NCBI GenBank assembly: GCA_017622925.1
Contig: JAGAQC010000034.1
Coordinates: forward strand, 1-64,000
Length of the DNA: 64,000 nt
Reading direction: 5' to 3'
Source of the DNA: Ruminococcus sp.
Lineage (GTDB): Bacteria > Bacillota > Clostridia > Oscillospirales > Ruminococcaceae
Part shown: piece after piece, positions 37,521 to 44,536 of the stretch
How positions within the stretch are numbered: position 1 is the first letter of the stretch
How the letters are laid out: every line of letters starts with the position of its first letter
Translations under genes and position numbers: made by a program
The notes under the pieces: generated by a model
Told to the model about the DNA's origin: nothing
What the model saw: the letters and a program-made list of their open reading frames with translations, nothing else
Databases searched by the model: none

Positions 37521-37552
37521 TAGAGTATCGACAAAACAGCTAATTTGAAACC

Positions 37553-37646: not shown

Positions 37647-38333
37647 ATGAATGATCTTTCCGAAAAGCTTGCGGAAGAGCTTGGGAACAAAACGGCGTTT
37701 ACAATACCCATATTCGGCGGTATTCCCGTTCCCGATTCCTGCGTTGTAACATGGATAATTATGGGAGTTATCGTTATTCTCTCCATATTTCTCACACATA
37801 ATATGAAAAAAGTCCCCACGGGCAAGCAATGTCTGCTGGAGATCGGCATTACATGGATGAACAATTTCTTCCTCGATGCGCTCGGACCCAAGGGTAAAAA
37901 ATATCTGCCGATACTGGAAACCTTTCTTATTTATATAGGATTCTCCAATATAATCGGAATTTTCGGATTTGTTCCGCCGACCAAGGATATAAACGTCACC
38001 GCTGCGCTTGCAGTTATGGCGGCAATTCTTATTCAGGTCACGACTATCATTGAAAAGGGCGGCAAGGGTTGGCTGAAAAGCTTTGTACAGCCTATGCCGA
38101 TAATGCTCCCCATGAATCTGCTGGAGCTTGTCACACGTCCGCTTTCGATGTGTATGCGACTTTTCGGCAACGTACTCGGCGCTTTCGTTGTAATGGAGCT
38201 TATCAAAATGTGCATACCCGGCGGTCTGCCCGTACCGTTCAGCCTGTATTTCGATATTTTCGACGGCTGCATTCAGGCGTATGTTTTCGTTTTCCTCACC
38301 TCTCTCTTTATGTCGGAGGCTATGGAAGAATAA
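37647..38333 (+). CDS. atpB: ATP synthase subunit a
   Basis: 228 residues, polytopic F0 subunit forming the ion half-channels. The conserved arginine lies in RPLSMCMRLFGNVLGA (about residue 171). The C-terminal helices FDGCIQAYVFVFLTSLFM are typical. ATG 37647 with GGAAGG upstream is chosen; the longer frame would cover the leader hairpins. First gene of the operon. Confidence 0.95.
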   Translation: MNDLSEKLAEELGNKTAFTIPIFGGIPVPDSCVVTWIIMGVIVILSIFLTHNMKKVPTGKQCLLEIGITWMNNFFLDALGPKGKKYLPILETFLIYIGFSNIIGIFGFVPPTKDINVTAALAVMAAILIQVTTIIEKGGKGWLKSFVQPMPIMLPMNLLELVTRPLSMCMRLFGNVLGAFVVMELIKMCIPGGLPVPFSLYFDIFDGCIQAYVFVFLTSLFMSEAMEE

Positions 38334-38344
38334 TTATGTAAATT

Positions 38345-38625
38345 CACTGTTTACAACTTTAGTGGGGGACGCCGGCTAACCGCCCCGTACCCTCTGTCAC
38401 TTCGTGACATCTCCCTACACTGTAGGGAGTCACCTCACACCCCATGCCAAAGGGGTGACCCCTTTGGAATCTCTGTTGTCGTAAATTTTCCTGCATAAAG
38501 CCTTCCGTATACATTTGAATCCATACTTTTATGGCTTTATGCAGGAGAATTTACGATATAGGGTTCAAGAGATTACCTTTTGGCAAAAGATATAGGAAAC
38601 AATATCCACTAAGTTGTAGACAGTA
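38345..38625 (-). repeat. Composite hairpin element (family A2), copy 2, inside the atp operon
   Basis: Outer arms cactgtttacaacttta and taagttgtagacagta. Inside are ccaaaggggtgacccctttgg and a 23-bp inverted repeat at 38480-38502 / 38533-38555 (starts cgtaaattttcc). It fills the 321-bp gene-free gap between atpB and atpE. The 23-bp stem would be very stable in RNA. Confidence 0.75.
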
Positions 38626-38655
38626 ACTGTAAATTATAAAACGGAGGTTATTATT

Positions 38656-38883
38656 ATGGGATCAATTGCTTTAGGCGCTGCCGTTGCAGTTCTTACAGGC
38701 GCAGGCGCAGGTGTTGGTATAGGTATCGCTACCGCTAAGGCTACGGAGGCTATCGCACGTCAGCCCGAAGCTAAGGGCGACATCAGAGGAGCTATGCTTC
38801 TCGGCTGCGTTCTTGCCGAAGCTACCGCTATTTACGGTTTCGTTATCGCTCTCCTTATCATCATCATGCTCGGAGGGAAGTAA
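38656..38883 (+). CDS. atpE: ATP synthase subunit c
   Basis: 75 residues, two helices joined by [10 protein letters not shown]. The ion-binding carboxylate is in the second helix ([11 protein letters not shown]). Compared with the Na+ site of Ilyobacter (Q32, V63, E65, S66, T67, Y70), Glu, Thr and Tyr are kept, but Q is Ile (GVGIGIAT) and S is Ala. H+ coupling is therefore more likely than Na+. ACGGAGG site 11 bp upstream. Confidence 0.95.
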
Positions 38884-38972: not shown

Positions 38973-39461
38973 ATGCTTGATTTTTCATTCTGGAGTATCT
39001 TCTGGGCGGTATTTAACGTTATCGTTCTTTTTTTGCTGCTCAGGATATTCCTGTTCAAACCTATAAATAAAATGCTTGACGACCGCACGCAGTCCGTGCA
39101 GAAGGACATCGACGACGCCGAACGCGCCAAAAAAGAAGCCGAGGAGCTGAAAGCGCAGTATGCCGCGTCTTTAAGCGAAGCAAAGGAGGAAGCCGGAAAG
39201 CTCCTCCGCAAAGCGCACGACGACGCCGAAACGGAGCGTGAAGCGATAATCCGCAAATCCCACGAAGAAGCGGAAAACATCGTCAGCGCAGCAGGCGAGA
39301 CTATCGAAAACGAGCGTAAACGGGTCATCCGTCAGGCGCATTCTCAGATAGCCGACCTTGCTATCGAAGCGGCTTCAAAGGTAGTCGGAGCTAATCTTGA
39401 CGATGAAAAGAACCGCCGTCTTGTTGATGAGTTCCTTTCCGAGGAGGCAGACAAAAAATGA
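38973..39461 (+). CDS. atpF: ATP synthase subunit b
   Basis: 162 residues. One N-terminal span ([20 protein letters not shown]) followed by a long charged coiled coil, the peripheral stalk. Ends ATGA over the fused delta-alpha gene. Normal length for the family. Confidence 0.95.
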
Positions 39462-41482
39462 GAGACACCGCTAAGGAATTTTTAAATGAGCTTATCCGTC
39501 TGAACATTACCCGTGAGGACATAGAGACTTCAAAGGGCGTTTTTGCCGCATGCCCCGACGTCAGGGATACTTTGGGCAACCCTCTTGTGACCCTTGACGA
39601 AAAAAGGGCTGTCATCAAGCGTATTTTCCCAAAGGCTCTTGAAAGACCCTTTGTGAACGCCGCAAAATCGGGTCTTATAGGCGAGCTTGACGAGATATTC
39701 GAGACTTATCTGGACGTTCTGCTGGAAAAGCAGGGCAGTATTAAGGCTGTAGTCCGCTATGTCACGCCGCTTACGGAAAGTCAGCAGGCGGAGCTTCGCA
39801 AGTTTATCATGGAAAAGTTCACCAAAGACGAGGTGGACATTGAATATAAACACGACCCCGACATAATCGGCGGCTTTATCCTCAATGCAGGCGATGTGGA
39901 ATATGACCGCAGCTACCGCACAAGTCTGCGAGCTATTCGTGAAACGCTCCGCAAAAAGGCGAACGATACTTCCGAAGCAAGCGGCAAGGGCATAAAGTCA
40001 GGGGACATTATATCTGTCCTCAAAACCGAAGTCAGGGATTTCGAGGTGCGTTCGGGAGCTTCCGAAACGGGATTCATCGTCCGTTTGGGGGACGGTATCG
40101 CCCGAGTTCACGGCATGAGCGGCGTTATGTACGGCGAGCTTGTGGAATTTGAAACGGGTATACGGGGAATCGTTCAGAACCTTGAAGAAAACTACGTCGG
40201 AGTAGTTCTTTTGGGCGACGACCACGGTCTTACGGAAGGCTCTACGGCTGTCAGAACGGGAAAGCGAGCAGGTATCGGCGTAAGCGATGAAATGCTCGGA
40301 CGCGTTGTGGACGCTCTCGGTTCGCCTATAGACGGTCTCGGTCCGATACACGCCGAGGACTACTTCCCTATCGAAAGAGAAGCCCCCGGAGTTATCGAGA
40401 GAAAGCCCGTAAGCGTACCTTTGCAGACGGGTATACTTGCCATTGACTCCATGTTCCCTATCGGCAGAGGTCAGCGTGAGCTTATCATCGGCGACCGACA
40501 GACGGGCAAGACCTCTATCGCTATCGACACTATCATAAATCAAAAGGGACAGGACGTTATCTGCGTTTACGCCGCTATAGGTCAGAAGTCCTCTACCGTT
40601 GCTCAGGTAGTAAACACGCTGAAAAAATACGGCGCGATGGATTATTCCGTCGTTGTTGCGGCGTCCGCTTCCGAGCCTGCTCCTTTCCAGTATATTGCGC
40701 CGTATTCAGCTACGGCTATCGCAGAATATTTCATGTCAAAGGGAAAAGACGTTCTTATAGTATACGACGACCTTTCCAAACATGCCGTGGCGTATCGTGC
40801 CATGTCGCTGCTGCTCCATCGTCCGCCCGGACGAGAAGCGTACCCCGGCGACGTTTTCTATCTGCATTCAAGACTTCTGGAGCGTTCGAGCCGTCTTGAC
40901 GACGAACACGGCGGCGGCTCTCTTACGGCTCTCCCTATCATCGAAACGCTTGCAGGCGATATTTCGGCATATATCCCCACAAATGTAATTTCTATCACAG
41001 ACGGTCAGATATTCCTTGAAAGCGAGCTTTTCAATTCGGGTCAACGACCTGCGGTGAACTACGGTCTGTCCGTATCCCGTGTAGGCGGCGCGGCTCAGAC
41101 AAAGGCTATGAAAAAAGCTGCCGGAAATCTCCGTATCGACTTGGCTCAGTTCAAGGAAATGGAGATATTCACTCAGTTCTCCTCCGAGCTTGACCCTGCT
41201 ACGGCGGAACTTCTTGCTCACGGTCATATGCTTACGGAACTCCTGAAACAGCCGCTTTATAATCCGCATCCGCATTATGAGCAGGTAATACTCCTCTATG
41301 CGGCACAGCACGGACTTTTCAGCCATGTATCGCCGAAAGAGCTTAAAACCTACGTTTCCGAGCTTATGAGCTACATCGACAGCTTCGGTCAGGATATTAT
41401 CACGGAGCTTGAAGAAAAACGTGTTCTCACCGACGATCTCACAGAACGTATCGAAAAGATCATCGCCGCATTTGAGGAATAA
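39458..41482 (+). CDS. atpHA: ATP synthase delta-alpha fusion protein
   Basis: 674 residues in one uninterrupted frame. Residues 1-170 are a complete delta subunit ([53 protein letters not shown]). A short linker ([17 protein letters not shown]) leads into alpha from about 185: [20 protein letters not shown], Walker [14 protein letters not shown] (about 345), [28 protein letters not shown], and a normal C-terminus. Usually these are two genes. The usual F1 ratio is three alpha to one delta, so the fusion alters stoichiometry unless alpha is also made alone. Confidence 0.93.
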
Positions 41483-41491
41483 GGTGATACT

Positions 41492-42400
41492 ATGCCCAAT
41501 ATCAGAGAAATACGTGAAAGAATAGAGAGCATAAAGCAGATACTCAAAATAACAAACGCAATGTATCTTATTTCTTCTTCAAAGCTTAAAAAGGCGCGAA
41601 AGGCTCTCGATTCCACCGAGCCTTACTTCTATAAGCTTCAGGAGACTGTCGAAAGCGTTCTCGAACATACGCCCCACATGCGCCAGCTGTACTTCGACAG
41701 GCGTTCAAGCATTCCCGAAGAACAGCGAAAAAAAGGCTATATCGTCATTACGGGCGATAAGGGACTGTGCGGCAGCTACAATCACAATATTCTTAAATAT
41801 ACCGAGGAAAAACTCGATGCAGCCGCCGATCTCGGCAGCTGCTACCTCTTTGTAATGGGACAGGTCGGACGTATGTACTTCCAACGCAGGATAAGATCGG
41901 GCAGAAAGGCTTACGTTGACGGCGAATTTCTCTATACTACGCAGAATCCTACGCTTTACCGTGCAGGAGAGATCGCTGATATTGTCCTTGAAAAATTCAA
42001 AAACGGCGAGCTTGACGAAGTGAGCCTGCTGTATACGGATATGGTGACTTCGGGCAAACAGGAAGTCCGCACCGTTCGGCTGCTCCCGTTCGAGCGCAGA
42101 CACTTCGGCAAGGCTGAGGACGGAACGATGAAAAAGCTCCCGAAAGCATCTTTTGTGCCGTCCCCCGAAAAGGTAATGGACTATCTTATACCGAACTACG
42201 CCAAGGGTATCATTTACGGCGCAATGGTAGAGGCGTTCTGCTGCGAACAGCATTCGAGAATGACCGCTATGGACGCCGCAACGACAAGCGCAAAGGACAT
42301 GATACGGGAGCTGTCGCTGTTGTACAACCGAGCAAGACAGGCGGCGATAACTCAGGAGATCACCGAGGTCTGCGGAGGTGCGGCTTCTGTTGGTGAATAA
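41492..42400 (+). CDS. atpG: ATP synthase subunit gamma
   Basis: 302 residues. Central shaft. N-terminal IREIRERIESIKQILKITNAM and C-terminal helix SRMTAMDAATTSAKDMIREL...QEITEV are conserved. The middle ITGDKGLCGSYN is also typical. Slightly longer than the usual 285 residues. 9 bp after the fusion gene, AAGGTGAT site. Confidence 0.95.
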   Translation: MPNIREIRERIESIKQILKITNAMYLISSSKLKKARKALDSTEPYFYKLQETVESVLEHTPHMRQLYFDRRSSIPEEQRKKGYIVITGDKGLCGSYNHNILKYTEEKLDAAADLGSCYLFVMGQVGRMYFQRRIRSGRKAYVDGEFLYTTQNPTLYRAGEIADIVLEKFKNGELDEVSLLYTDMVTSGKQEVRTVRLLPFERRHFGKAEDGTMKKLPKASFVPSPEKVMDYLIPNYAKGIIYGAMVEAFCCEQHSRMTAMDAATTSAKDMIRELSLLYNRARQAAITQEITEVCGGAASVGE

Positions 42401-42448
42401 TAATGTTAGTTTAGCAGGAACTATGTCAACGCTATTAGATTAAGGGAA

Positions 42449-42630
42449 CTAACATCGGGATTCCAAAGGGACGGTGTCCCTTTGGCGGAGTCCAGAGGCA
42501 GCGCCTCTGGTGGGGTGCGGGGCGAAGCCCTGCATAGCGTTTAAGCGCTCCGCAAAGGGTGAATTTCAAAACAGTCCACAGGACTGTTTTGAAAGAGGGA
42601 ACGCCCTGCAAGAGAGGGCGTTCCCTTAGC
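42449..42630 (+). repeat. Five-hairpin intergenic element (family A), copy 4, inside the atp operon
   Basis: Begins taacatcgggattccaaagg and ends agagggcgttccctta. All five palindromes are present; the variable stem is caaaacagtcc...ggactgttttg. It fills most of the 325-bp gap between atpG and atpD. No promoter was recognised in the remaining 90 bp, so atpD is probably read through from atpG. Confidence 0.85.
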
Positions 42631-42675
42631 AAAGACAGGGCGTTCTGTTTCCTTAATAAACAAAATCTCTGCTAA

Positions 42676-44124
<1,449 letters not shown>

Positions 44125-44125
44125 T

Positions 44126-44536
44126 ATGGCTAAAACTTTTTACCTTGAAATAATCGCCTCCGACCGCATTTTCTTTCAGGGGGACTGCGAGCATCTTGTA
44201 ATAACGGCGATAGACGGCTTGCTCGGCATACTTGCAGGACACGAGCCGCTTGTCACCTCTCTGCCTACGGGCGAACTTAAATACATGGTGGACGGCGAAT
44301 GGAAGCATGCCGCAATATCCGAGGGATTTATAGAGGTAATGCCCGATAAGGCGGTAATTCTTGCGGATTCCTGCGAACTTCCCGAGGAGATAGACATAAA
44401 ACGCGCGGAGGAAGCAAAAGAACGCGCCGAGGAAATGCTCCGTCAGCAGCAAAGTATTCGTGAATATTACGAAACTCAGGCGGCTCTCAACCGCGCCATG
44501 AACCGCCTTAAAGTATCGCAGAAGCATTTTCGATGA
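44126..44536 (+). CDS. atpC: ATP synthase subunit epsilon
   Basis: 136 residues. N-terminal beta sandwich (FYLEIIASDRIFFQGDCEHLVI; GLLGILAGHEPLVT) and a C-terminal helical hairpin (IDIKRAEEAKERAEEMLRQQ). ATG 44126 is preferred on family length; GTG 44117 overlapping atpD is an alternative. Last gene of the operon. Confidence 0.93.
   Translation: MAKTFYLEIIASDRIFFQGDCEHLVITAIDGLLGILAGHEPLVTSLPTGELKYMVDGEWKHAAISEGFIEVMPDKAVILADSCELPEEIDIKRAEEAKERAEEMLRQQQSIREYYETQAALNRAMNRLKVSQKHFR

Follow-up and report, generated by a model that had tools for sequence, protein, structure and literature searches.

One delta subunit and one peripheral stalk per F1Fo ATP synthase are treated as a near-universal rule. 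In known enzymes the N-terminal domain (NTD) of delta caps F1 on its axis and the C-terminal domain (CTD) binds the b dimer. The closest described system is an engineered one, in which Ueno et al. 2025 (PMC12229609) fused the deltaCTD to alpha in the FoF1 of Bacillus PS3. As reported there, gels gave the engineered enzyme an average of two stalks and cryo-EM showed as many as three with their a-subunits, the share of three-stalk complexes being very low, and its H+/ATP ratio was 5.8 versus 3.0. Contact between deltaCTD-alpha and b2 was described as sufficient for stalk binding without the NTD, and the authors hold that it is the NTD, placed on the pseudo-three-fold axis, that restricts the enzyme to a single stalk. 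The model of this deltaDeltaN-alpha fusion is PDB 9jc1 according to the data section of the paper, which also mentions a natural deltaCTD-alpha gene in Acidaminococcus fermentans (UniProt G4Q3K6, A0A1I2C5T3).

We compare these enzymes with an ATP synthase locus of Ruminococcus sp., a gut relative of Ruminococcus flavefaciens, that lies in a 64,000-nucleotide stretch of DNA (hereafter the window; GenBank assembly GCA_017622925.1, contig JAGAQC010000034.1, positions 1 to 64,000) from a draft genome of 2.5 Mb in 76 contigs, 88% complete. Like the engineered PS3 fusion, the gene in the window connects a deltaCTD through a short linker to an alpha whose N-terminal helix is kept, and no separate delta or alpha was found beside it. 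Unlike that construct, it keeps the whole NTD, which was deleted in PS3 to allow several stalks. The Acidaminococcus fermentans gene is likewise a natural delta-alpha joining in an anaerobe, with the NTD absent by the description in PMC12229609 and present here. Fusions of the deltaCTD to alpha are already in print, as that paper records, and the full-delta form in the window differs from them by its kept NTD. Searches of the open-licence literature found no description of a full-length delta-alpha fusion.

A fusion of delta to another stator subunit, as here, is seen in chain d of PDB 7jg5 ('ATP synthase subunit b-delta'), whose source organism we take to be mycobacterial. That fusion joins delta to stalk subunit b, whereas the window joins it to alpha, which is present in three copies; joining delta to b need not change the delta copy number. 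In the window b is a separate gene, atpF (38973..39461, + strand; 162 aa; PF00430, E 1.2e-28), the sole copy found in the genome, which sets the locus apart from delta-b fusions. One such delta/b 'Rosetta stone' fusion is described in PMC5709465. N-ATPases, described as lacking delta and having a longer b (PMC5706428), share with the window a departure from the standard delta subunit and differ from it in that delta is present here; the fused chain scores 610.4 bits against the N-ATPase alpha model TIGR03324, below the cut-off of 750.5. V-type ATPases carry several EG stalks (PMC6131620), and an enzyme with more than one stalk site per head would resemble them in function. Unlike those enzymes, the delta-alpha chain belongs to F-type families (Pfam, NCBIfam).

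Architecture of the fused gene and its operon

The delta-alpha gene (39458..41482, + strand) reads directly as one uninterrupted frame from its ATG, which overlaps the atpF stop codon (ATGA), to its own stop, and encodes 674 aa (74.2 kDa; predicted mass 74,186 Da). Open frame, sequence reading, Pfam and NCBIfam together delimit a complete delta (OSCP), a polar linker of about 16 residues and a complete alpha. The OSCP family (PF00213) matches residues 15-164, corresponding to profile positions 19-172 of 172 (E 3.8e-25; 89.4 bits against a gathering cut-off of 22.3), and both delta domains are present. The NTD (residues 1-90; 39458..39727, + strand) was recognized with Pfam and bounded by alignment to relatives that have only the deltaCTD, while the CTD (residues 91-165; 39728..39952, + strand) is strongly conserved and aligns with the deltaCTD of 9jc1. 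Next comes the linker (residues 166-181; 39953..40000, + strand), which is polar (mean hydropathy -1.37) and probably flexible, and which varies in its sequence as well as its length. The region that follows (residues 182-200; 40001..40057, + strand) is kept and conserved, and we take it from known alpha structures to be the alpha N-terminal helix.

The alpha body (40058..41479, + strand), with its beta-barrel, nucleotide-binding and C-terminal domains, is defined by alignment and by Pfam matches to ATP-synt_ab_N (202-268), ATP-synt_ab (325-540) and ATP-synt_ab_C (547-672). The NCBIfam model for atpA, TIGR00962, spans residues 179-673 at 750.8 bits (cut-off 484.45), as expected of a full-length alpha. 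The Walker-A stretch GDRQTGKT (345-352) and the arginine-finger stretch SRVGGAAQ (540-547) show no variation in any of the 71 alignment rows. These results bear out the initial annotation, which had read a full delta, a short linker and a full alpha with intact nucleotide-binding motifs in a single frame and had put the chain at 74 kDa. Delta was not found as a separate polypeptide; its sole copy found sits inside the alpha frame.

The cluster around the fusion is otherwise normal, with the order a-c-b-[delta-alpha]-gamma-beta-epsilon on a single strand. Subunit a of Fo is encoded by atpB (37647..38333, + strand; PF00119, E 2.3e-42 on the longer frame), again the sole copy found in the genome; the open reading frame list starts this gene at a TTG at 37545, and the ATG at 37647 has a AAGGAAGG stretch upstream. 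The c-ring subunit is encoded by atpE (38656..38883, + strand; 75 aa; PF00137, E 1.2e-18). Downstream of the fusion lie, all on the + strand, atpG for gamma (41492..42400; PF00231, E 1.5e-91), atpD for beta (42727..44124; TIGR01039, 821 bits) and atpC for epsilon (44117..44536; PF02823 and PF00401). Between atpB and atpE are about 300 noncoding bases (38334-38640) holding inverted repeats, one of 24 nt (38479-38502 / 38533-38556) and one of 13 nt, a structure resembling a small repeat or mobile element. Close to this gap, two tandem c genes are found in many relatives of the same genus, and one in the window. The gamma-beta gap (42401-42726) is 326 bases long, and is about 25 bases in locus L003 and about 200 in L007.

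Conservation within the genus

Relatives' loci were taken as the best 80 of 159, nearly all titled Ruminococcus, with two titled Alistipes and one Bacillota bacterium; among these 80 the nearest, with 95% over residues 1-227, is from an uncultured Ruminococcus. The fusion was found in 54 of 59 same-genus genomes. It is one intact frame in 52 of them, where delta-alpha reads continuously at 65-88% protein identity; the count of 54 includes G036, where the fusion begins at a contig edge within delta and continues into alpha, and G033, where it carries a frame break inside alpha. Isolate assemblies with the fusion include R. flavefaciens FD-1, 007c, ATCC 19208 and MC2020, and strains MA2007, ND2009 and others are also represented among the 80 relatives. 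The initial annotation had named beforehand a stop or frameshift near 39970-40000 as an observation that would overturn the fusion; none is there, the same-genus frames read through, and chance need not be considered. Its pointer to Oscillospiraceae also fits the relatives, R. flavefaciens being placed in that family by NCBI.

A draft genome such as the window's invites the reading that a lost stop or a frameshift has joined two ordinary genes in a metagenome bin. The same fusion stands in the independent genomes and named isolates above, and codon-level purifying selection is seen on either side of the junction (below). On these grounds we reject both this artefact, whose residual probability we regard as negligible, and the reading of the gene as a pseudogene. 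The cluster order, the 54 genomes and the selection likewise uphold the initial description of the gene order as normal and not debris.

Same-genus genomes that do not fit the pattern are G016 and G054, where a conventional operon on a small contig is all that was seen (L037, L045), and G017, G022 and G037, where no F-type alpha was found in the search of the 59 genomes. Four others (G021, G034, G042, G043) have a conventional operon in addition to the fused one (L053, L049, L052, L054). The alphas of these additional operons group with those of other families of the order, which would reflect either horizontal transfer or misbinning. Two loci titled Alistipes (L175, L195) have a Ruminococcus-type fused operon and are probably mislabelled or misbinned metagenome contigs. 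The fused gene occurs in two copies in the FD-1 assembly (L247, L249) and in G045, through duplication or assembly redundancy.

Separate genes were sought in 25 genomes: 18 from the genus of the window, six with fusions of classes B or C (defined below), and G239. Completeness is 90% or more, and contamination 5% or less, in 24 of the 25. The fused frames hold 26 of 26 OSCP matches and 26 of 26 alpha matches over the TIGR00962 cut-off (G045 contributing two copies). No separate alpha or delta gene was found in any of the 25 genomes, nor in the window's own 88%-complete genome. Profile searches of the latter found one OSCP, one b and one a, and its other ATP-synt_ab matches are beta and a pair of genes, located on contig C48, that appear V/A-type by size and similarity. 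Because no separate alpha gene was found, the fused gene has to supply all three alphas of every enzyme, provided that the assemblies lack no gene. The stoichiometric puzzle posed in the initial annotation, that there would be three deltas per F1 unless the chain is cut or alpha is made separately, thus holds.

Related stator layouts and the origin of the fusions

Layouts were read with custom profiles at 162 loci from same-genus to same-phylum genomes; the loci were partly picked for long frames, so the counts are not frequencies. The ordinary layout, with separate delta and alpha, was found at 53 of these loci. Class A, the full delta-alpha, comprises 51 loci (43 of the window's genus, window included, with L077, L081, L083, L104, L132, L133, L134 and L168), and class B, deltaCTD-alpha, comprises 46. 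At the seven loci of class C (L058, L059, L095, L116-L119) a separate b is accompanied by b'-deltaCTD-alpha in one frame; L095 was assigned to this class by hand, on a 750-aa frame with deltaCTD, alpha and a hydrophobic N-terminus that has no b match of its own. Rarer forms are a free deltaCTD of 74-78 aa adjoining alpha (class D; L055, L062, L129), two tandem deltaCTDs and alpha in one frame (class E; L108 in G299), and a b-deltaCTD fusion with alpha apart (L156 in G408).

Among eight relatives scanned with Pfam, the triple fusions L059, L116 and L118 have ATP-synt_B, the C-terminal half of OSCP and alpha all over cut-offs. OSCP is also over its cut-off in L077 and L104 (full length) and in L078 and L060 (C-terminal half), and falls below it in L039 (20.9 vs 22.3 bits). 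The NTD is kept in all 43 window-genus loci measured, with at least 94 residues ahead of the CTD. Triple fusions follow a separate b gene and are 736-755 aa long in the four measured; their N-terminal part matches in 10 of 295 genomes of the order, nine with frames of 737-784 aa and the tenth with a frame of 521 aa. Such a chain would attach a membrane-anchor helix to every alpha and is perhaps more striking than the fusion in the window. It was not met in searches of the open-licence literature, none of them aimed at the triple fusion by name.

Frequencies were based on genomes with an F-type alpha at E <= 1e-120, in samples that overlap and are not to be summed; matches with short frames or internal stops were mostly taken as separate, so the fused counts are lower bounds. 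On this basis fused forms make up at least 16 of 97 in the family sample of 148, at least 25 of 65 in the order sample of 147, at least 23 of 117 in the class sample of 196 and, among the matches listed, at least 6 of 170 in the phylum sample of 199. Judged from these sequences, fusions of a similar kind recur within this class of bacteria, and the NTD of delta is often missing from them.

A 130-row alpha tree, with support by SH-aLRT only and 35 of 127 inner branches open, needs 14 changes between fused and separate genes and eight between presence and absence of the NTD. The window's clade groups with the ordinary loci L076 and L101 (96). Within a single genus (g68), a full delta-alpha (L077) and a deltaCTD-alpha (L078) are sisters (99), which suggests that the NTD was lost after the joining. 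In a 50-row tree, holding the 20 fused rows closest to the window together as one clade was rejected (p-AU 1.2e-56; the group was named after seeing the tree), which means either several origins or one origin with several reversals. At L076 the delta stop lies inside GGAGGTGA, a stretch that resembles the ribosome site of alpha. Delta and alpha share a reading frame there, and the two genes would become one if two in-frame stops were lost. The relatives can be read as a series from separate delta through full delta-alpha and deltaCTD-alpha to b'-deltaCTD-alpha, suggesting stepwise evolution of the change.

Selection, divergence and processing of the chain

For the selection test 73 named loci and the window gave a frame, and 72 rows passed the length limits; of the 80 named loci seven were left out where the frame was not found by motif and two for length. 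Pooled over 237 pairs, omega is lowest in alpha, at 0.042 in its N-terminal helix and 0.045 in the remainder, followed by 0.063 in the CTD, 0.175 in the NTD and 0.295 in the linker. By this measure purifying selection is acting on every part of the delta-alpha gene. The NTD is retained, yet it is the fastest-evolving folded part of the chain.

Divergence differs between the two delta domains. At alpha identities of 0.84-0.90 the CTD stands at 0.79 vs 0.51-0.52 for the NTD in fused chains, and at 0.46 vs 0.43 in separate deltas, a contrast owed almost entirely to the window's genus, which supplies nearly all pairs of class A. Outside it, the one class A pair of comparable distance is L081/L083, with 0.55 for the NTD and 0.74 for the CTD. 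Between fused lineages (alpha 0.6-0.7) the contrast is absent, the CTD exceeding the NTD by 0.04 both in 326 fused and in 590 separate pairs, perhaps because delta had diverged before the fusions arose. As a control, values at equal alpha identity in the window's genus vs others are 0.78 vs 0.65 for gamma, 0.68 vs 0.54 for b and 0.84 vs 0.87 for c. Since gamma and b are also more alike within the genus, the rise of the CTD is partly general; we dropped raised CTD conservation as a fusion-specific signal and kept only the contrast of CTD over NTD. In class B the CTD stands at 0.57 vs 0.45 (alpha identity 0.78-0.84; 13 vs 41 pairs), a rise no greater than that of gamma (0.75 vs 0.60).

The chain might be processed, by proteolysis in the linker or by internal re-initiation, to give the usual one delta and three alphas. 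A polar, variable and probably flexible linker could be cut by a protease without any conserved site, and in some relatives (11 of 72 rows) in-frame start codons occur near the junction, within residues 166-183. In the other 61 rows, the window among them, ATG, GTG and TTG are absent from that interval. The linker runs to 13-21 residues across the 72 rows, in which no shared motif was seen. The commonest in-frame start near the junction is Met at residue 160, inside the last delta helix, in 57 of 72 rows but not the window, and the next commonest occur in 14, 10, 9 and 9 rows. The window's sole in-frame ATG, GTG or TTG near the junction is the GTG of residue 197, where nine of 72 rows have a start codon, and starting there would remove the conserved alpha helix. 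Internal initiation is thus not supported by this codon survey, and conserved start, ribosome site and cleavage motif all went unseen, which argues against a conserved re-initiation or cleavage device; unspecific cleavage is possible. Joining the genes would bring no obvious benefit if the product were cut, yet the fusion recurs and persists. Class B linkers have about the length of the engineered one (profile gap 8-10 in 25 of 46, range 8-55, vs 11), and the engineered fusion is reported to run as one band above alpha on gels (PMC12229609). We consider processing to one delta and three alphas unlikely.

Copy number and peripheral stalks

We propose that this organism's ATP synthase takes its delta and its F-type alpha from this gene, the only source found for either, and that the chain would be used uncut, giving three tethered deltas per alpha3beta3 head, and we give this reading a probability of roughly 0.8. 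Uncut use is suggested by the sequence, in which no conserved processing or re-initiation signal was seen. The covalent link would then replace the reversible docking of delta on alpha. Residues 93-667 of the window's chain align along the whole of 9jc1, with seven extra residues in the linker region and a two-residue gap near the C-terminus. Measured as profile gap, the linker is 11 in the engineered fusion, 12 in seven of seven class C loci, 8-20 in other class A loci, 15-30 in the window's genus and 18 in the window. Given this alignment and linker length, the engineered geometry should be within reach of the window's chain. By analogy with 9jc1, each delta CTD would sit on its own alpha N-terminal helix and form a site for a b2 dimer. 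One delta NTD would fill the central dimple on the three-fold axis, and the other two would have to hang outside.

From this arrangement either one stalk or two to three stalks would form, with our expectation divided about evenly between them. Should only one form, three deltas would be present and one would engage b2 and a; the NTD on the axis would block the other sites and leave two deltas as idle passengers. The NTD is kept and selected throughout the measured loci of the window's genus, and PMC12229609, in its conclusions, ties this domain to the restriction of stalks to one, which together speak against several stalks. One copy each of the a and b genes was found, both in the operon of the fusion, which favours the single-stalk reading. 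Idle CTDs, however, should attract b2, since in the engineered enzyme of PMC12229609 this contact is reported to suffice without the NTD. The NTD is also missing in several fused branches, even within genus g68, and in fused chains it is far less conserved than the CTD, though not in separate deltas and almost wholly on the evidence of the window's genus; both observations are for several stalks. Against several stalks also stand the greater likeness of gamma and b within the genus, which makes part of the CTD rise general, and the contrast between fused lineages at alpha identity 0.6-0.7, no larger than that in separate deltas. A single working stalk seems to us a little short of even odds. 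That the enzyme encoded in the window is a natural multi-stalk F1Fo, with two or three b2-a stalks despite the kept NTD, which alone would then not fix the stalk number, is a tentative proposal that we hold at somewhat less than an even chance. Several stalks, if formed, would each bring an a-subunit and raise the H+/ATP ratio.

Implications for fermenting anaerobes

With three tethered deltas per head as the preferred reading, a genus that includes the cultured Ruminococcus flavefaciens appears able to make delta only in alpha's number. The fused enzymes offer a natural test of the factors that determine how many stalks and a-subunits an ATP synthase has, and hence how many protons it uses per ATP. 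If the multi-stalk proposal is true, gut and rumen anaerobes would have ATP synthases with an unusually high H+/ATP ratio. With several stalks, ATP could be made by a fermenting anaerobe even when the proton gradient is low, or each ATP could drive the pumping of more protons, and the higher ratio would alter the energy bookkeeping for rumen and gut fermenters.
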